A DNA stretch of 23,228 bases from positions 1 through 23,228 of the IMG/VR virus record IMGVR_UViG_3300047510_000382; one strand, 5' to 3'. Shown one piece after another: positions 630 to 16,178 of this stretch. The notes below the pieces were generated by a model that saw only the letters and a list, made by a program, of their open reading frames with translations, was not told the DNA's origin and searched no databases. The position numbers and the translations under genes were made by a program. Position 1 is the first letter of the stretch. The number at the start of each line of letters is the position of its first letter. The DNA comes from a virus.

Positions 630-914
630 ATGCCAAAACGCAAACGCATCAAGGTGGTCTACAATAAACTCGGGCGTGCCAACGCATGGGGGCTTGCGGA
701 TACGGATGGTCATATGGTCCAGCTTGATGAAAGGCTCAGGGGCAAGAAGCACTTGGAGATACTTGTGCATGAGGTTGTACATATACTGCTGCCTGATGCC
801 AGCGAGGAGGAGGTGGAGCGTATAAGTATAAACCTGACCACGGTGCTTTGGAAGGAAGGGTATAGGAGGATCGACAACTCATCGGACGAGCCGTTGCAGG
901 ACGGCAGGCATTGA
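630..914 (+). CDS. Small HExxH putative zinc metallopeptidase-like protein (94 aa)
   Basis: This 94-aa protein has a Lys/Arg-rich N-terminus, a strand-like region ending in a Gly-rich turn, then a helix carrying H47-E-V-V-H51, the HExxH zinc-binding signature. Glu/Asp residues follow about 10 residues later (EEEVERI, 60-65), where a third ligand could lie. It resembles the short SprT/ImmA-like putative metallopeptidases common in phage genomes. Those proteins are rarely characterised, so peptidase activity and substrate are inferred. The gene ends at a TGA (912-914) immediately before the parS-like site and lies upstream of groEL. The start at 630 keeps the basic N-terminus; a promoter box sits only 4 nt upstream. 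Confidence 0.7.
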   Translation: MPKRKRIKVVYNKLGRANAWGLADTDGHMVQLDERLRGKKHLEILVHEVVHILLPDASEEEVERISINLTTVLWKEGYRRIDNSSDEPLQDGRH

Positions 915-930
915 TGTTTCACGTGGAACA
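915..930. promoter_or_regulatory. parS-like ParB-binding site
   Basis: TGTTTCACGTGGAACA begins on the base after the metallopeptidase stop codon. Read on the minus strand it is TGTTCCACGTGAAACA, a full match to the bacterial chromosomal centromere consensus TGTTNCACGTGAAACA. It is a palindrome with one mismatched pair around CACGTG. On base composition alone the expected number of such matches in 23 kb is about 4 in 100,000. No parA or parB gene is present in the window, so the likely binder would be host ParB or a protein encoded elsewhere on the phage. Binding is inferred, the match is directly seen. Confidence 0.75.
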
Positions 931-932
931 TA

Positions 933-962
933 TATCTTTGTAATGAATTAAGTCTATATTTG
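933..962 (+). promoter_or_regulatory. groEL operon promoter region (two TAnnTTTG boxes)
   Basis: Two Bacteroidota -7 boxes lie in the 64-nt gap upstream of groEL: TATCTTTG (933-940) and TATATTTG (955-962). The second ends 16 nt before the ATG at 979, the spacing seen at several other promoters here. The first begins 2 nt after the parS-like site, so a protein bound there could affect this promoter. Confidence 0.55.
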
Positions 963-978
963 TTACAAATTAAATTGA

Positions 979-2592
979 ATGGACACACTTGGTTATTCTC
1001 CAAAGGACCTGAAGTTTGGCGCCGAGGGCAGGGATAAACTTATCTCGGGTATCAGTAAGATGGCTCTGGCTGTTAAGAGCACGCTTGGTCCTAGCGGCAA
1101 CACTGTTCTTATTGAATCTGTTCAGCACACCCATGGGATCACGGTCACCAAGGATGGGGTCACTGTTGCTAAGTCTATTGACCTGATCGACCCGGTAGAG
1201 AACCTAGCGGTAAAGATGATGAGGGAGGCAGCTGACAGGACAGCCACGGTTGCAGGTGACGGTACCACTACAGCTATTGTACTGACCGAGGCTCTGGTAA
1301 AGGGTGGGGTTAAGTACATCGAGCCGAAGCATAACAGGACCACTGTCCTACGTGAGCTTGTGGACTTGTCTAACATTGTGGTGGAGAAGCTTAAACAAAA
1401 GAGTCAGGCGCTGACAAAGGAGAAGATGCTTGACGTGGCTACGATCTCGGCTAACAACGACGCATCGATTGGAAAGATTATATCGGAGGTGTATGGTGAC
1501 GTTGGCGAGAACGGCATCGTTACAGTTGAGCGCTCGCAGACATCTGATACATACGCCGAGACCACCAAGGGTCTGAAGATCGATAGAGGCTACCTGAGCC
1601 CGCTGTTCATTAATAACCAGAAGAAGGACGAGTGTATCTACGAGGACATCATGGTCCTAGTGGCTGACATCGAGATAGCGAACATCTTGCAGATAGAGTC
1701 TGTACTGAAACCAATCATACAGGAGGGCAAGAAGCTTCTGATCATCTCGCCGTGCCACAAGAACGTGGTCAACACCTTAGCGGCTAACGTGCTCAAGAAC
1801 AACCTGAAGGTGGTAGCTATCCAGCCACCTAGCTTTGGATACAAGCAGCACGAGCTGATGCAGGACATCGCTATCTCTGTAGGCGCAACATACTTCAGTG
1901 AAAAGACAGGGGACGATCTAAGTGTAATTACTTACGGAGACCTAGGGCACGTGTCTAAGTGTATTGTAGGTAAGGACCGGACCGTCCTGATTAAGTCTGA
2001 CCTGAAGTCCAAGCAGTCTGACATTGACGAGCGTGTGGCTCAGCTGTGGCAGGCGCATGAGGTGGCTACCAAGAAGGCTGACCGTGACTTCATCCTCGAG
2101 CGCATCGCTTCCCTGACAGGGGGCGTTGGGGTTATCTACGTTGGTGGCAACACTGACCTAGAGCAGAAGGAGCTTTACGATCGGGTTGACGATGCGGTGT
2201 GTGCGGTTCGATCGGCTATGGAGGAGGGCATCCTTCCCGGCGCTGGCAAGGCGCTGTACGAGATCGCTGTTCGCGAACTGCAAACAGGTAGCACCCCTGA
2301 GGCTGATGTGGCTGTCAAGATCCTGTCGGATGCGTTGGCTGCACCTGTCTCGCAGATACTTGCTAACGCTGGCTTGGAGCTGAATGAGATCTACGGTGAT
2401 ACCAATAAAGATGGGTGGGGGTATAACCTAAAGGGCGGTGCATTTGGGGACCTTATTGACATGGGGGTCATTGACCCACTGAAGGTCACAAGGTCAGCGC
2501 TGCAAAATGCGATCAGTGTTGCAACAACGATTCTTTCAACAAACGCTATCATCACGATGGCACGAAGCTATGAGTCAGGAACCAATGCTTGA
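979..2592 (+). CDS. groEL: Phage-encoded chaperonin GroEL (Hsp60)
   Basis: Group I chaperonin of 537 aa, close to the roughly 545 aa of bacterial GroEL. Equatorial ATP-binding motifs are present: LGPSG (36-40), TKDG (57-60) and GDGTTT (93-98), plus ILPGAGKAL near 418-426. The catalytic Asp equivalent to E. coli D398 is in VDDAV (403-407). The intermediate-domain DRGYLSP (202-208) and the apical helices with KLLIIS (252-257) and PPSFG (283-287, for the usual APGFG) are recognisable, so the protein looks intact and able to hydrolyse ATP. It lacks the C-terminal Gly-Gly-Met tail and ends in SYESGTNA. It heads an operon with two small paralogous genes and groES; its stop overlaps the next start. 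The likely role is folding capsid or tail proteins in the host cytoplasm. Whether it forms single or double rings cannot be told. Confidence 0.95.
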   Translation: MDTLGYSPKDLKFGAEGRDKLISGISKMALAVKSTLGPSGNTVLIESVQHTHGITVTKDGVTVAKSIDLIDPVENLAVKMMREAADRTATVAGDGTTTAIVLTEALVKGGVKYIEPKHNRTTVLRELVDLSNIVVEKLKQKSQALTKEKMLDVATISANNDASIGKIISEVYGDVGENGIVTVERSQTSDTYAETTKGLKIDRGYLSPLFINNQKKDECIYEDIMVLVADIEIANILQIESVLKPIIQEGKKLLIISPCHKNVVNTLAANVLKNNLKVVAIQPPSFGYKQHELMQDIAISVGATYFSEKTGDDLSVITYGDLGHVSKCIVGKDRTVLIKSDLKSKQSDIDERVAQLWQAHEVATKKADRDFILERIASLTGGVGVIYVGGNTDLEQKELYDRVDDAVCAVRSAMEEGILPGAGKALYEIAVRELQTGSTPEADVAVKILSDALAAPVSQILANAGLELNEIYGDTNKDGWGYNLKGGAFGDLIDMGVIDPLKVTRSALQNAISVATTILSTNAIITMARSYESGTNA

Positions 2593-2830
2593 TAAACTAC
2601 TTGAGGCTTACCCCGGGGAGCTGTTCCTTAGGGCTGATGGGTTTGACGCCGCTATCATAGGGGTCGAGCCAACAAAGATGGTTATTGCATACTCGTGCAA
2701 GAAGTGCATAGACCTACTGATCGAGAAGGGGTACGAGTACGTGGACGCAATTGACTACTTCGAGTTCAGCGTTAGGGATGTTGACTTCGGCGCCAAGACC
2801 CCCATATTTATTGAGGACAACTTTGACTGA
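2585..2830 (+). CDS. Small conserved phage protein, first of a tandem paralogous pair (81 aa)
   Basis: This 81-aa protein aligns along its whole length with the next gene product. Shared features are an early YP, GFDxAxxGxE, an M followed by YSxxKCI, a helix ending in DAIxxFExxVR, and a C-terminal IFIxxxFD. Similar proteins are common in tailed phages and some bacteria, but I know of no assigned function. I chose ATG 2585 because the paralogue starts at the equivalent place; it overlaps the groEL stop by 8 nt. An in-frame ATG at 2570 would add five residues. Its place between groEL and groES suggests co-expression with the chaperonins, not necessarily a chaperonin role. Confidence 0.75.
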   Translation: MLDKLLEAYPGELFLRADGFDAAIIGVEPTKMVIAYSCKKCIDLLIEKGYEYVDAIDYFEFSVRDVDFGAKTPIFIEDNFD

Positions 2831-3078
2831 TGACACTAGAGGATGTTATAGTACACTACCCCGAGCAGATGTTCTATACCCCAGAGGGTTTTGACGATGC
2901 TGTTGTCGGGATAGAGGAGGACAGCATGAGGCTGGTGTACTCGGTGAACAAGTGCATCAACATACTTGTCAACAACGGCATGGACATGATCGATGCGATC
3001 GAGCACTTCGAGCTTAGGGTCCGACACTCAAACCCGTCAGGCGGGGCGATCTTTATTCAAACAGACTTTGATATATGA
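2830..3078 (+). CDS. Small conserved phage protein, second of a tandem paralogous pair (82 aa)
   Basis: Paralogue of the preceding gene product, sharing GFDDAVVGIE, the YSxxKCI motif, DAIxxFExxVR and the C-terminal IFIxxDFD. The start overlaps the upstream stop by one base (TGATG) and its stop overlaps the groES start (ATGA), so translation is probably coupled through all four genes. The pair looks like a tandem duplication that has diverged. A single Cys before Ile is kept in both copies. Function unknown; an adaptor or regulator made with the chaperonins is only a guess. Confidence 0.75.
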   Translation: MTLEDVIVHYPEQMFYTPEGFDDAVVGIEEDSMRLVYSVNKCINILVNNGMDMIDAIEHFELRVRHSNPSGGAIFIQTDFDI

Positions 3079-3335
3079 AACCAATCGGTAAGTACATTGT
3101 AATCAACTCAGTAGTAGAGGAGGACGTAAGGACCCAGTCGGGGCTCCTGTTATCTGGCGAGGACGCCAAGGGGTTCAGGTACCAGAGGGCGGTTGTGGTT
3201 AAGCCCGGGACTGACGTGACCGTCATCAAGGAGGGGGACACCATCTACTACGACAAGGGGCATGGGTTCACTATGCTGATCGAGGATAAGCCCTACACTG
3301 TCATCATGGAGCGTGACGTGGTGGTTGTTGTCTAA
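3075..3335 (+). CDS. groES: Phage-encoded co-chaperonin GroES (Cpn10)
   Basis: An 86-aa Cpn10-family protein. It starts KPIGKYIVI, like the KPLxDRVLV start of GroES, continues with a mobile-loop-like segment (EEDVRTQSGLLLSGEDAKG, about residues 13-32) containing the SGLLL/SGIxL hydrophobic tripeptide that docks on GroEL, then an EGDTIYYDK beta-barrel motif and a C-terminal strand pair ending MERDVVVVV. Slightly shorter than bacterial GroES (about 95 aa), with the roof loop apparently reduced. It is the last gene of the groEL operon. It would cap the phage GroEL, or possibly host GroEL, during folding of phage proteins. Its TAA lies inside an 18-bp palindrome shared with the convergent gene. 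Confidence 0.88.
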   Translation: MKPIGKYIVINSVVEEDVRTQSGLLLSGEDAKGFRYQRAVVVKPGTDVTVIKEGDTIYYDKGHGFTMLIEDKPYTVIMERDVVVVV

Positions 3336-3349
3336 ACAAATTTGTTTAG
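3332..3349. terminator. 18-bp perfect palindrome containing both convergent stop codons
   Basis: CTAAACAAATTTGTTTAG equals its own reverse complement. It contains the groES TAA (3333-3335) and, on the minus strand, the TAA of the MarR-like gene (3346-3348). It could act as a compact bidirectional terminator or a protein-binding site. The stem is AT-rich, so a terminator role is only moderately likely. Confidence 0.5.
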
Positions 3350-3780
3350 TCCGCCGACCGCTTCTTGTCCCTGACGAACTGGTTCATTGACATGATCATG
3401 TCACGGTACCTGCGGTCTGAGTAGCCAACGTTCTTATGGAACACTGTGTTATTGTGTGACGCTGTCTCCGGTATCTCTTCCCCATTCAGCTTCTTATATA
3501 TGCTGTCTATCAGTCTCTTTGCTTTATACGATAGCTCGTACAGGGCTCTTCGGTTCCCCTTCCTTTCTCTAAAGGTTACCACCCATCCTTCTCTTAGGAG
3601 CCTGTCGAATCTATTGTCGTCCCAAGACAGGAGCCTGTCGAACTCCTCGAACCTGTCCCTACCGAAGTATGACTCTGAGTTTAGGAACAGCAGCACGTCT
3701 AGGTCCGCTTGGGTCAGTCCGTACTTGGTCTTTACAAAATACCTGATGACCCTCCAGTACTTTAGGTAGTCCGATTTCAT
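3346..3780 (-). CDS. MarR-like winged helix-turn-helix transcriptional regulator (144 aa)
   Basis: The only minus-strand gene in the window. From the chosen ATG (3780) the 144-aa product has an N-terminal dimerisation-type helix, GLTQADLDVLLFLNSE (21-36), a basic/acidic helix-turn-helix around residues 42-63 (FEEFDRLLSWDDNRFDRLLREG), a wing with WVVTFRERKGNRRALYELS (66-84) and a long helix (KAKRLIDSIYKKL). This is the MarR/PadR winged-helix pattern. A roughly 45-aa basic tail follows. An upstream in-frame ATG (3909) would run through the divergent promoter, so I reject it. It probably acts as a DNA-binding switch between the groE block and the late genes; its operator may be the inverted repeat in the divergent gap. 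Exact family not certain. Confidence 0.75.
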   Translation of the reverse strand: MKSDYLKYWRVIRYFVKTKYGLTQADLDVLLFLNSESYFGRDRFEEFDRLLSWDDNRFDRLLREGWVVTFRERKGNRRALYELSYKAKRLIDSIYKKLNGEEIPETASHNNTVFHKNVGYSDRRYRDMIMSMNQFVRDKKRSAD

Positions 3781-3794
3781 TAGATTTAATTTGC

Positions 3795-3826
3795 TACTTT
3801 TGTATGCAAAGGTAAACACAAAGGTA
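3795..3826. promoter_or_regulatory. Divergent promoter region with facing -7 boxes and repeats
   Basis: The + strand carries TACTTTTG (3795-3802), 23 nt before the ATG at 3826. The minus strand carries TACCTTTG twice (seen as CAAAGGTA at 3807-3814 and 3819-3826), 26 and 38 nt before the ATG at 3780. The two copies are a 12-bp-period direct repeat. TACTTTTG and the first CAAAGGTA form an imperfect inverted repeat with a 4-nt spacer, a plausible operator for the dimeric MarR-like protein. All boxes fit TAnnTTTG. Confidence 0.6.
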
Positions 3827-4056
3827 TGTCTAAAAGCATGAACAGGGACTATCCGCTTTCTCAGTCTCCAGACCCGGGGGAGCGTCAGCGTTATATCAAA
3901 AAAGTCCAAGACTTATTTAACTCTAAAAGAGAGTCTAAGAAAGGAAAGTATGTGTCTGATACTAAAAAAGGATTAGAGGGATTGATGTCTGAAGATAAGG
4001 CTTACAGAGATGCAAAGAAGAAAGCCTTAGATGTACTTACTGGTAAAAAACTTTAA
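3826..4056 (+). CDS. Small basic protein with RDYPL-SPDPGER motif (76 aa)
   Basis: A 76-aa Lys-rich protein. Residues 7-23 carry RDYPLSQSPDPGERQRY, which recurs at the same residue numbers in the gene product at 4831 (13 of 17 identical). The rest is charged, helical-looking and rich in Lys/Asp/Glu; there is no membrane segment. It is the first gene downstream of the divergent promoter and heads a run of tiny basic genes separated by only a few bases. A virion-associated or DNA-binding role is possible but unproven; I do not recognise a named family. Confidence 0.7.
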   Translation: MSKSMNRDYPLSQSPDPGERQRYIKKVQDLFNSKRESKKGKYVSDTKKGLEGLMSEDKAYRDAKKKALDVLTGKKL

Positions 4057-12415: not shown

Positions 12416-12643
12416 ATGGACATCCGAAAGGTATCTATTGGTCCAGACTATAAGGGAGGTGCAATGCACTATATCGTTGGTCAGAAGGTGTTGAACGAAA
12501 CCAATGAGATACATCTTATTAAGTTTGATTCATCTTCTGGATCAATTAAGATTTATATCATAAATGAAAAAAGCGAGGTAATGCTGTGGAAGGAGTTTAC
12601 CCACACCGTGCCTGTATCAATCGAATATAATATATCATATTAA
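12416..12643 (+). CDS. Conserved phage protein (DIRKVSIGPDYK type, 75 aa)
   Basis: A 75-aa protein, mainly beta by appearance: DIRKVSIGPDYKGGAMHYIVG, EIHLIKFD, SIKIYIINE, VMLWKEF and PVSIEYNISY. I recall similar short proteins in Bacteroidota phage genomes, unassigned. It starts 11 nt after the previous stop, behind an AT-rich leader, and its last base is the first base of the next start codon. No metal-binding or catalytic residues stand out. Confidence 0.7.
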   Translation: MDIRKVSIGPDYKGGAMHYIVGQKVLNETNEIHLIKFDSSSGSIKIYIINEKSEVMLWKEFTHTVPVSIEYNISY

Positions 12644-13206
12644 TGAAATCACCTTTCTGCTTCATAGTAAAACCTGTGAACGGAAAGCGATACGACAACA
12701 CAAAGAAAATTGGTGGGATTGATTTTATAGTTAGCACTTCGGAGGAGGACCACAAGTTTTCTAATAGATACGCAGAAGTCGTAGAGCTTCCAATAAACTA
12801 CATCGGTCCTGTTATGGTAGGAGATATACTCCTAGTTCACCATAATGTATTTAAGTTTTACAACGACATAAGGGGTAAGCAAAGAAGCGGCAAGAGCTTT
12901 TTTAGGGATGATATATTCTTTATTGACCCTGATCAGTTCTTCATGTATAAGCGTGATGACAAATGGATAGCATACGATAAGTACTGCTTTGTTAAGCCGA
13001 TCCCAGTTACAGACTCATACATCAAGAAGCCATTCTCCGAAGAGCCTCTGATTGGTATTATGGTGTATCCAAATGGATACATGACTGAGAAGGGGGTTAG
13101 TTCTGGTGACAAGGTATGCTTTGCGCCAGATAGCGAGTACGAGTTTAATGTTGATGGTGAGAAGCTGTATAGAATGTTTGATCATCAAATAACAATGGTT
13201 CTATGA
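12643..13206 (+). CDS. Putative two-domain GroES-like protein (187 aa)
   Basis: A 187-aa protein with two halves that each look like Cpn10. First half (about 1-120): FCFIVKPVN, a strand with RYAEVVELP, then GPVMVGDILLVHHNVF. Second half (about 114-187): YCFVKPIPV, PLIGIMVYPN, then GVSSGDKVCFAPDSEYEFNV and DGEKLYRMFDHQITMVL. The end of the second half aligns well with the end of the GroES at 3075: GD, an aromatic after three residues, an acidic/Gly turn with Glu/Asp-Lys, and a hydrophobic final strand. A double Cpn10 is known in plastid Cpn20. It is coupled to the upstream gene (1-nt overlap) and the downstream one (ATGA). A GroES role is inferred; a mobile loop is not clearly seen. Confidence 0.55.
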   Translation: MKSPFCFIVKPVNGKRYDNTKKIGGIDFIVSTSEEDHKFSNRYAEVVELPINYIGPVMVGDILLVHHNVFKFYNDIRGKQRSGKSFFRDDIFFIDPDQFFMYKRDDKWIAYDKYCFVKPIPVTDSYIKKPFSEEPLIGIMVYPNGYMTEKGVSSGDKVCFAPDSEYEFNVDGEKLYRMFDHQITMVL

Positions 13207-13679
13207 ATATGATGGTAATAGATAACGTGCTGCATGACCCTAACGAGTATGTTGTCGATATATATTCTAGGCAGTTCTCTGATGTCTTTGATGGTAAGAA
13301 TTTATTCAAGGGTATACAGCCAAGGAATAACGACGAGTTTTCTGACTATGTTTTAAGCATAGCAGGCGACTCTTTTGAGGTGGCTTGGAACTTTATTAGG
13401 ATGTCTCCCTTAAATCAGGAGGAACCCAACTTCATGCACACTGATGATATGATGGGGGATATAACAGCTATACTATATTTAAGTAAGCAGCATCCTGAAA
13501 ATGATGGTACAACGGTATATGATCTCGATGGCAAGATAGCCTCTGTTGTATACTCAAAGTTTAATAGGGCTATCATGTTCGATTCAAATCTTCCGCACCA
13601 TAGAAATATATTTGAGAACTTTGGTGCTGGTGAATCATCAAGGCTGATACAGGTTGTCTTTCTAAGAGAAAAGAAATGA
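13203..13679 (+). CDS. 2-oxoglutarate/Fe(II)-dependent oxygenase-like protein (158 aa)
   Basis: A 158-aa protein with the double-stranded beta-helix pattern of 2OG/Fe(II) oxygenases: HTD (79-81, iron ligands), a following strand ITAILYLS, a distal His in LPHHR (132/133), and an Arg at 147 before the final strand LIQVVFL, placed to bind 2-oxoglutarate. It resembles the short phage members related to prolyl hydroxylases. Start overlaps the GroES-like gene (ATGA) and stop overlaps the small terminase. The reaction would hydroxylate a protein or nucleotide substrate; the substrate is unknown. A role in modifying virion proteins is speculation. Confidence 0.7.
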   Translation: MNMMVIDNVLHDPNEYVVDIYSRQFSDVFDGKNLFKGIQPRNNDEFSDYVLSIAGDSFEVAWNFIRMSPLNQEEPNFMHTDDMMGDITAILYLSKQHPENDGTTVYDLDGKIASVVYSKFNRAIMFDSNLPHHRNIFENFGAGESSRLIQVVFLREKK

Positions 13680-13954
13680 AAGAGATAAAGCTAAAAATTA
13701 TTGAGGCAGGGCATAGGGCTGTAGAGCAACTTATTAAGGTTGCAAAGGAGGAGATTATAAAGCCGGACCCGGATGATGAGCTTGCTGCGGACAGGCTTAA
13801 GAATGCTGCTGCCACAAAGAAGCTAGCTATATTTGATGCGTTCGAGATTCTTAATAGGATAGAAGCTGAGCGTGAAAGTATAGAGATGTCTGAGAAGGGA
13901 TTAAATAAAACTGAAACAAAGCAGGGCTTTGCTGAAAGAAGAAGTAAACAATAG
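13676..13954 (+). CDS. Putative terminase small subunit (92 aa)
   Basis: A 92-aa helical protein. Key stretch: AVEQLIKVAKEEIIKP (15-30), DELAADRLKNAAATKKLAIFDAFEILNRIEAER, then a charged tail GFAERRSK. It sits immediately upstream of the large terminase with a 26-nt overlap, the classical TerS place, and its size is within the low range for small subunits. There is no clear DNA-binding helix-turn-helix at the N-terminus. It would recognise the packaging site and stimulate the motor. Assignment rests on position and on resemblance to proteins before TerL in Bacteroidota phages. Confidence 0.6.
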   Translation: MKEIKLKIIEAGHRAVEQLIKVAKEEIIKPDPDDELAADRLKNAAATKKLAIFDAFEILNRIEAERESIEMSEKGLNKTETKQGFAERRSKQ

Positions 13955-16178
13955 TATCTATAGGGTTCTCGTAGACTACGTACCTAAGAGCGTTATGTCC
14001 TCAAAGAATAATGCTAAGGCTTGGAGGTATGGGTACAACGAGAAGTACGATATGGTCGTAATATCAAAGACTGGTCGTATAGGAGAGGTTGTTGAAATAT
14101 CTGGACTTGCGATTGCGCTTCCGGCAGAACCGGATAGTATTTACTCAAGAAGTGAACTAAAGGAGGATCAGTACTGGGATAGGGTTGACTTGCCAAAGGA
14201 GCTATCCAAGATACAGTCTATATTCCATTGGAACGAGATGCCTGCCGAGTTTAAGGACAGGTGGGTTGATTACATAGAGAAGCAGTTTGATTACAGGGAA
14301 GAGGGGTTTTGGTTCATGAACAATGGGAAGCCTACCTATATAACTGGGGCGCACTGGATGTATCTTCAGTGGTCTAGTATAGATATCGGGTACCCCGACT
14401 ACCGTGAAGCCAACAGGATATTTTTTATTTTCTGGGAGGCATGTAGGGCTGATGATAGATCCTTCGGAATGATATATCTTAAGATCCGTCGTTCTGGGTT
14501 CTCATTTATGTCATCTTCTGAGTGTGTGAACATTGCAACCCTTGCCAGAGATTCTAGGGTTGGTATACTATCAAAGACAGGTGCTGATGCAAAGAAGATG
14601 TTTACAGATAAGGTTGTCCCAATTAACAGCCGCTTGCCTTTCTTCTTTAGACCCATCATGGACGGTATGGATAAGCCTAAGACTGAGCTGGCATATCGGG
14701 TGCCTGCGTCTAAGATTACTAAGAAGAACATGCACAACGTGGATGGGGAGAGCATGGATGGTCTTGATACAACGATAGACTGGAAGAATACAGAGGAGAA
14801 CTCATACGATGGAGAAAAGCTCCTGTTCTTAGCTCACGATGAAAGCGCTAAGTGGGTTAAGCCTAATAACATCCTAAACAACTGGCGTGTCACCAAGACC
14901 TGTCTTCGATTGGGTAGTAAGATTATTGGTAAGTGTCTGATGGGGTCTACCTCGAATGCACTCAGTAAGGGTGGAGACAACTACAAGAAGCTGTACGAGG
15001 ACTCAAACGTAAAAGATAGAAACGCAAACGGTCAGACCAAGAGCGGTCTATACTCACTGTTTATTCCAATGGAGTGGAACATGGAGGGCTTCATTGATAT
15101 CTATGGGATGCCTGTATTCAGGAAGCCGGATAGCAAGCTAAGGGGTGTTGATGGGGCTTGGATTACGAATGGGGCGATAGATTACTGGGAGGCTGAGGTT
15201 GATTCATTAAAGTCCGATCCAGATGCACTGAACGAATACTACAGACAGTTCCCGAGGACAGAGTCCCATGCGTTTAGGGACGAGAGCAAGCAGTCTCTTT
15301 TTAACCTGACTAAGATATACCAGCAGATAGACTATAACGACTCCATGATTAAGGAGCACTACCTGACTAGGGGGTCATTCCACTGGAAGGATGGGGTGAA
15401 GGACTCAGAGGTGGTCTGGACTCCAGACAGCAGGGGAAGGTTTCTGATCAGCTGGGTCCCACAGAAGAACCTACAGAACAACGTAGTAACCAAGGGTGGG
15501 GCTAAGTATCCGGGCAATGAACACCTAGGCGTTTTCGGGTGTGACTCATATGACATATCTGCCGTGGTTGGTGGTAGGGGTTCCAATGGAGCGCTGCATG
15601 GTCTGACAAAGTTCCATATGGATGACGCTCCGGTCAACGAGTTCTTCCTTGAGTACATAGCTCGTCCACAAACGGCAGAGATTTTTTTCGAGGAAGTGTT
15701 GATGGCTTGTGTATTTTATGGGATGCCTATCCTTATAGAGAACAACAAACCTAGGATACTATATCATTTTAAGAACAGGGGGTATAGGCATTTCTGTATG
15801 AACAGACCAGATCGACACTACACAAAGCTGTCAAAAACTGAGCGTGAGCTCGGAGGGATTCCGAATACATCTGAAGAAGTAAAGCAGGCTCACGCCACAG
15901 CTATTGAGTCATACATAGAAAAGCATATAGGTATTGATATGTCGGGTACATACAGAGAGCCGGACATAATGGGGACCATGCCATTCACCAGAACATTGGA
16001 GGATTGGGCTAAATTTGATATCAACGACAGGACTAGGTTTGATGCCTGTATTAGCTCGGGTCTGGCTATTATGGCAAACCAAAAACACCTGTACGTACCT
16101 GAAAAAAAAGAGAATAAAATTAGCGTTAACTTTGCTAGGTATAACAACCACGGCAGTACAAGTCAAATTATTAGATGA
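13929..16178 (+). CDS. terL: Terminase large subunit (TerL)
   Basis: A 749-aa DNA-packaging motor. ATPase part: LKIRRSGFSFM (184-194) occupies the Walker A position but has Gly-Phe-Ser in place of Gly-Lys-Ser/Thr; LLFLAHDES (298-306) is Walker B with the catalytic Glu; LMGSTSN (337-343) is the coupling motif. Nuclease part: GCDSYD (537-542), ILIENNK (601-607) and RFDACISSG (703-711) supply the acidic metal ligands of the RNase H-like fold. About 750 aa is long for TerL, with extra N-terminal sequence (1-140). The start is a TTG at 13929 inside the small-subunit gene; the next ATG is 13995, which would lose 22 residues including YRVLVDYVPKS. It cuts concatemers and pumps DNA into the prohead through the portal. 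Confidence 0.88.
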   Translation: MLKEEVNNSIYRVLVDYVPKSVMSSKNNAKAWRYGYNEKYDMVVISKTGRIGEVVEISGLAIALPAEPDSIYSRSELKEDQYWDRVDLPKELSKIQSIFHWNEMPAEFKDRWVDYIEKQFDYREEGFWFMNNGKPTYITGAHWMYLQWSSIDIGYPDYREANRIFFIFWEACRADDRSFGMIYLKIRRSGFSFMSSSECVNIATLARDSRVGILSKTGADAKKMFTDKVVPINSRLPFFFRPIMDGMDKPKTELAYRVPASKITKKNMHNVDGESMDGLDTTIDWKNTEENSYDGEKLLFLAHDESAKWVKPNNILNNWRVTKTCLRLGSKIIGKCLMGSTSNALSKGGDNYKKLYEDSNVKDRNANGQTKSGLYSLFIPMEWNMEGFIDIYGMPVFRKPDSKLRGVDGAWITNGAIDYWEAEVDSLKSDPDALNEYYRQFPRTESHAFRDESKQSLFNLTKIYQQIDYNDSMIKEHYLTRGSFHWKDGVKDSEVVWTPDSRGRFLISWVPQKNLQNNVVTKGGAKYPGNEHLGVFGCDSYDISAVVGGRGSNGALHGLTKFHMDDAPVNEFFLEYIARPQTAEIFFEEVLMACVFYGMPILIENNKPRILYHFKNRGYRHFCMNRPDRHYTKLSKTERELGGIPNTSEEVKQAHATAIESYIEKHIGIDMSGTYREPDIMGTMPFTRTLEDWAKFDINDRTRFDACISSGLAIMANQKHLYVPEKKENKISVNFARYNNHGSTSQIIR

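Follow-up and report, generated by a model that had tools for sequence, protein, structure and literature searches.

The palindrome and the genes around it

The window analysed here is the whole of a virus record of 23,228 bases. As its relatives measure about 62-65 kb, this record is probably a fragment. Its gene content includes GroEL, two small paralogs, GroES, terminase, portal and a virion structural protein (Table 1). The two small paralogs lie in tandem in the groEL-groES interval (2570-3078) and both match phrog_13182. Beside groES, on the minus strand at 3346-3909, a 187-aa protein weakly matches a family of transcriptional regulators (phrog_12817, E 0.006), and a 'repressor protein' is annotated beside the groES of MW202828. 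Between the 187-aa gene of the plus strand, to which the term refers hereafter, and the terminase gene (13203-13679), a 2OG-Fe(II) oxygenase match was found below the Pfam cut-off. The window terminase is related to those of 87 named phage records, comprising 68 Flavobacterium, 15 Cellulophaga, 2 Tenacibaculum and 1 Maribacter phages and 1 environmental genome, and from these relatives and the style of the promoter we infer that the host phylum is Bacteroidota. None of 296 Bacteroidota genomes contained a relative of this terminase at 1e-30, in a search run without a positive control.

The sequence TGTTTCACGTGGAACA at 915-930 is a palindrome of the chromosomal parS type, perfect over all 16 bp. 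An initial annotation had reported a parS match here, and the reverse complement TGTTCCACGTGAAACA does agree with the consensus TGTTNCACGTGAAACA at every base. The 16-bp palindrome TGTTYCACGTGRAACA that marks chromosomal-type parS is therefore present with 0 mismatches, and it is also the sequence of the presumed parS of the presumed host phylum. With the window's own base composition 2.3e-5 occurrences of TGTTYCACGTGRAACA are expected, in agreement with the figure of about 4e-5 given earlier. No second place within three mismatches of the consensus was found in a scan of all 23,228 bases; as shuffled sequence gives a mean of 0.67 matches when three mismatches are allowed, it is only the exactness of the site that is informative.

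The site starts directly after the TGA (912-914) that ends the 94-aa gene, and 2 nt separate its last base from TATCTTTG, with the groEL start following at 979. The TTG and TATCTTTG, which would form a promoter of the Bacteroidota type, enclose a putative spacer of 19 nt (914-932) that holds the palindrome, and a second box, TATATTTG, is found at 955-962. The setting described in the initial annotation, after a stop codon and 2 nt before a promoter box, is thus accurate, the box being a putative promoter element.

Table 1. Features of the window, and the five places (A-E) at which exact sites occur in the family records
Feature	Position	Strand	Basis or records
94-aa protein with HEVVH	630..914	+	Metallopeptidase-like by eye only; no Pfam match; weak phrog_1233, E 0.0035
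Possible -33 element TTG, Bacteroidota-type groEL promoter	911..913	+	Sequence; Bacteroidota-type consensus
parS-type palindrome TGTTTCACGTGGAACA, place A	915..930	No strand	Sole window place within 3 mismatches
Possible -7 element TATCTTTG of groEL promoter	933..940	+	Sequence; kept in L122; Bacteroidota-type consensus
groEL, chaperonin	979..2592	+	PF00118, 1.7e-58; phrog_5725
groES, co-chaperonin	3075..3335	+	PF00166; phrog_3188
187-aa protein without assigned function (place D)	12643..13206	+	No Pfam match
Terminase large subunit (place E)	13929..16178	+	phrog_6681
Place A, before groEL			Window, G001
Place B, directly after groEL stop			G005, G007, G008
Place C, Zn-ribbon-like ORF after groEL, read EFHVEL			G002, G003, G004, G006, G030
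Place D, 187-aa gene, read GSTWN			G001, G005, G007, G008, G011, G012, G022, G036, G043, G047
Place E, terminase, read VSRGT			G004, G006, G011, G016

Recurrence of the site among related phages

The position before groEL was found to be rare. The nearest groEL relative found (L122, 80%) has the same layout with one end base changed, and it is the only one of 80 groEL relatives with the site in the 160 bases before groEL, some of the contigs holding less than 160 bases there. The upstream gene and groEL are kept in L178 with the site absent, and L187 looks alike by sequence; among 26 loci of the upstream 94-aa gene the site occurs in one, L202, which is the same record as L122. A longer place-A pattern matched only this L122/L202 record in viral_contigs, very near records possibly having been left out. 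In relatives without the site, groEL is still preceded by a box that looks promoter-like by eye. The expectation that the site would recur at the same place in close relatives was therefore not borne out (1 of 80 groEL loci), and at the groEL side the flanking genes persist where the site is gone, which the initial annotation had named as evidence against its reading. A groEL-adjacent position as a conserved feature was rejected on these counts, and the window and L122 alone show a link to the chaperonin promoter. By sequence, the element is kept in kind across relatives and not in position.

The wider recurrence was surveyed in a family set of 79 whole records (2,830,575 bases), which comprises the window together with the records that hold 78 of the 80 groEL loci. 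The exact GTTYCACGTGRAAC occurs in 24 copies in 17 of the 79 records, some of which are close kin, compared with 0.036 copies expected. If one mismatch is allowed, the number of positive records rises to 27 of 79, versus 3 of 79 for the reversed pattern. The exact site is absent from the other 62 records, eleven of which are at least 60 kb long. A second set held 40 further metagenomic records, 10 of them chosen for carrying a site; the 30 not so chosen yielded one exact site (G164). Ten named phage records out of the 87 terminase matches, nine with a named host, lack the motif even at one mismatch. Among 420 perfect palindromes obtained from half-site shuffles, the palindrome of half-site GTTCCAC ranks first with 16 distinct contexts, the next best having 7 and 2 and the remaining 417 none (265 family loci, 3.0 Mb, some overlapping). 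Other perfect palindromes also recur in the groEL-family loci L122-L201, namely TGTCTTTAAAGACA in 12 of 80 and TGTCTTCGAAGACA in 8 of 80.

All 24 copies fall at the five places of Table 1, with seven records carrying two. Two of these places are intergenic and three lie within genes, where the site is read in three reading frames, so the constraint of one peptide cannot account for the sites. Four relatives (G005, G007, G016 and G022) are probably complete, their first 50 bases recurring near the end, and they carry two, two, one and one sites, respectively. No common rule or position was apparent in the cumulative skew of these four, and a reading of the site as a phage replication origin found no support there. 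A terminase packaging signal, suggested by two places in or near the terminase gene, was rejected, since most relatives are without the site and other copies lie by groEL.

Codon usage at the genic places was also compared. At place D the relatives carry the site near codon 104 of the 187-aa gene, where the window reads RDDKWIA and has no site. The exact site is present in 16 of 76 clusters of this gene. These clusters are not all separate cases: L175 and L357, at least, come from the same record. In the 24 clusters that encode STWN, TCC is used in 21, ACG in 23 and AAC in 20, the background usage of these codons in the same genes being 0.09, 0.14 and 0.43. When ranked with the other conserved codons of the gene, those for T, S and N come 2, 16 and 24 of 125, and on this account the codon bias alone is suggestive, not decisive, as a sign of selection at the DNA level. 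Among the peptide variants, G047 reads CSTWN and G001 (L346) reads GFTWN, with phenylalanine in place of the serine and the palindrome intact.

At place E the site is found in 11 of 164 terminase rows, a count that includes overlapping loci, and each of the 11 reads VSRGT; nearly all rows without it have T before RG or KG, with exceptions seen in L497 and L518, and the window itself reads LTRGS. At place C the peptide is kept without the exact DNA in L123, L126 and L156. On the terminase tree, which keeps 95 of 151 rows after removal of near-copies, place E requires 2 changes and place D 6; on the tree of the 187-aa gene itself, for which short clusters were removed to leave 71 of 76, place D requires 9, of which 1 is forced by starred branches. 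The gains within place D may be independent of each other, although not firmly so.

Host sites, partition genes and the wider viral collection

The exact inner 14-mer was found in 76 of 80 Bacteroidota genomes, typically in two copies, compared with 3 of 80 for the reversed control; the centre genome of this set, G079, had been chosen for a site. In six of seven loci examined, all picked by the motif, the host copies adjoin a gene that, named by eye, we take to be mnmG, L234 being the exception. In five of six such host genomes a ParB_N match is present, either on a different contig from the sites or, if both could be placed, far away from them. Phages and hosts alike have GTTCC as well as GTTTC half-sites. 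The host copies are presumably parS bound by ParB.

Partition genes were sought with several models in record sets of which some members, the window included, are fragments. The ParB model PF02195 matched in none of 29 records, a set that covers 13 of the 17 with a site, and TIGR00180 in none of 18 virus records, all 17 included, while matching in both host genomes given. The ParA model (PF13614) likewise gave no match in 35 metagenomic virus records and the integrase model (PF00589) none in 31, all 17 site-bearing records being covered each time. In the window none of the models for ParB, ParA and integrase matched, in line with the earlier statement that it lacks parA and parB, and the proposed search of related phages for these genes gave no match in the 17 site-bearing records. 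The cognate parB (and parA) in cis that characterizes phage- or plasmid-borne ParABS was thus not found. One of four named phages, Cellulophaga phage phi13:2, does have a PF00589 match (NC_021803.1 17372-17899, E 6.5e-9); it is a distant terminase relative, and its integrase-type match sets it apart from the metagenomic relatives.

Across the viral_contigs collection TGTTYCACGTGRAACA occurs in at least 120 stretches, compared with 2 and 40 for two control palindromes of the same letters in full scans. The two controls differ 20-fold, and the rarer one contains GTGCAC, which is possibly shunned as a restriction site, a guess on our part. Among the matches listed, 74 of 147 parS sites lie outside ORFs of at least 80 aa, whereas for sites of the second control the figure is 3 of 40 (Fisher 4e-7). 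Several sites per locus are seen in 17 of 120 parS loci and in 0 of 42 control loci, loci being counted regardless of kinship. Clustered sites are seen in L031 (five at 2657-3444), L014 and L030. A ParB profile built on four Bacteroidota sequences, of which two represent a single protein, gave weak matches in 2 of the 120 listed loci (E 5e-5 and 0.003), whose flanks are short, so ParB may lie elsewhere on a contig. A distant relative of the window terminase is present in one of the 120 listed loci, and none of them matched one host MnmG or ParB. Ten proteins chosen for size from ten listed loci gave seven matches to PHROG families, three of which are portal or head-tail; some host DNA among the listed contigs is possible.

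It is conceivable, if somewhat doubtful, that centromere mimicry without ParB is widespread, with many phages of many hosts riding the host segregation machinery and the window as one case. If so, non-integrating phages would gain a way to be inherited, and should the collection-wide excess hold, the presence of parS would offer a simple marker of such phages.

Possible roles and known systems

The explanation that we favour, with moderate confidence, is that the site is a selected parS that loads host ParB onto phage DNA, its likeliest use being tethering or segregation. We infer selection as the cause, and likewise the binding of ParB and its use, from sequence comparison. Capture of host ParB had been called the simplest reading in the initial annotation, and it stays so because the site is identical to that of the host phylum and par genes were not found, whereas the groEL position has to be given up as a general feature. 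Host ParB is, on the sequences compared, the only partner in sight for the phage site. On injected phage DNA, host ParB-CTP would bind the palindrome, close into a clamp and then spread along the DNA. The ParB-coated phage genome would be treated like the host origin region, with ParA-driven positioning and perhaps SMC loading, so that the phage would stay with the nucleoid and could pass to daughter cells when infection is slow or has stalled. One or two sites per genome would suffice, set where the sequence tolerates them. Against this, most relatives are without the exact site, place A is common to two phages only, and nothing points to a state that is persistent or resembles that of a plasmid. 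That most relatives lack the site might be explained by differences in host or lifestyle.

A regulatory role, in which host ParB bound within the spacer would block groEL transcription or set its timing, acting as a local repressor that the phage reads, appears unlikely. Such a role would fit the palindrome's place within the 19-nt spacer of the putative promoter and the same layout in L122, and repression of promoters next to parS at a raised ParB level is reported for Pseudomonas aeruginosa (PMC5521831). It leaves unexplained the copies in the terminase gene, in the 187-aa gene and after groEL, as well as the relatives whose groEL has the promoter-like box and no site. The scattered places argue against a purely regulatory role. 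It is improbable that the phage copies act as a decoy, titrating host ParB or disturbing host segregation or replication control as a takeover step. Phage replication would indeed raise one or two sites per genome above the host's typical two, but a decoy should work best with many sites in each genome, and the four relatives that look complete carry one or two, while most family members manage without any.

Recognition by another binder, either a phage regulator or a different host factor, would make the likeness to parS coincidental, and this we regard as distinctly improbable. Binding of ParB at the site is a prediction, palindromes are common operator shapes and further palindromes recur in the family; on the other hand, all 16 bp match, both half-site types are shared by phages and hosts, and there is no fixed operator position. 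Chance in the window combined with codon coincidence in the relatives is very hard to credit: the peptides FHVE, STWN and VSRGT permit the palindrome, the three place C loci keep the peptide without the exact DNA and a site once gained is inherited by related phages, but 24 copies were found against 0.036 expected, at five places and in three frames, and the shuffled-palindrome and reversed controls fall far behind.

Should the favoured reading, a selected parS that loads host ParB, be true, a host centromere without par genes would be a minimal 16-bp route to the host segregation, and perhaps SMC-loading, machinery. Some Bacteroidota phages persist long without lysogeny; such persistence is reported for crAss001, with capsule phase variation as a linked factor (PMC8375218). 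Already known are parS itself, phage partition systems and a phage with ParB alone (PMC10286716). In the literature searched, which did not extend to the parS survey of Livny et al. (2007), no account was found of a natural phage that uses the parS of its host and lacks ParB, and any priority is provisional.

The closest likeness is to the chromosomal parS of the Bacteroidota ParABS system, with which the window shares the 16-mer and the family the half-site variants, and which is typically present in two copies per genome; the window site differs in lying on a phage and not beside mnmG, and in that its places shift in relatives. Phages that mimic dif use the host XerCD, and so also copy a host chromosome-maintenance site in order to borrow host proteins, although for recombination and integration and not for partition. 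The parABS of P1 is the partition system of a plasmid-like prophage (PMC12704722), and extrachromosomal mycobacterial prophages also carry partition systems (PMC7157519). In these, as perhaps here, a centromere on phage DNA could serve inheritance, but they encode their partition proteins and the window and its relatives have no ParA or ParB match. Staphylococcus phage Lacachita has parB without parA, and a plasmid-like state was proposed by its authors (PMC10286716); in that partial system it is the protein that is phage-coded, and the window phage is the reverse, having the DNA site only. In an engineered lambda-parS phage, CFP-ParB loads on the injected phage DNA and forms foci (PMC13190303); there the site is artificial and the ParB is supplied, both being used as a label, whereas the window site is a natural one.
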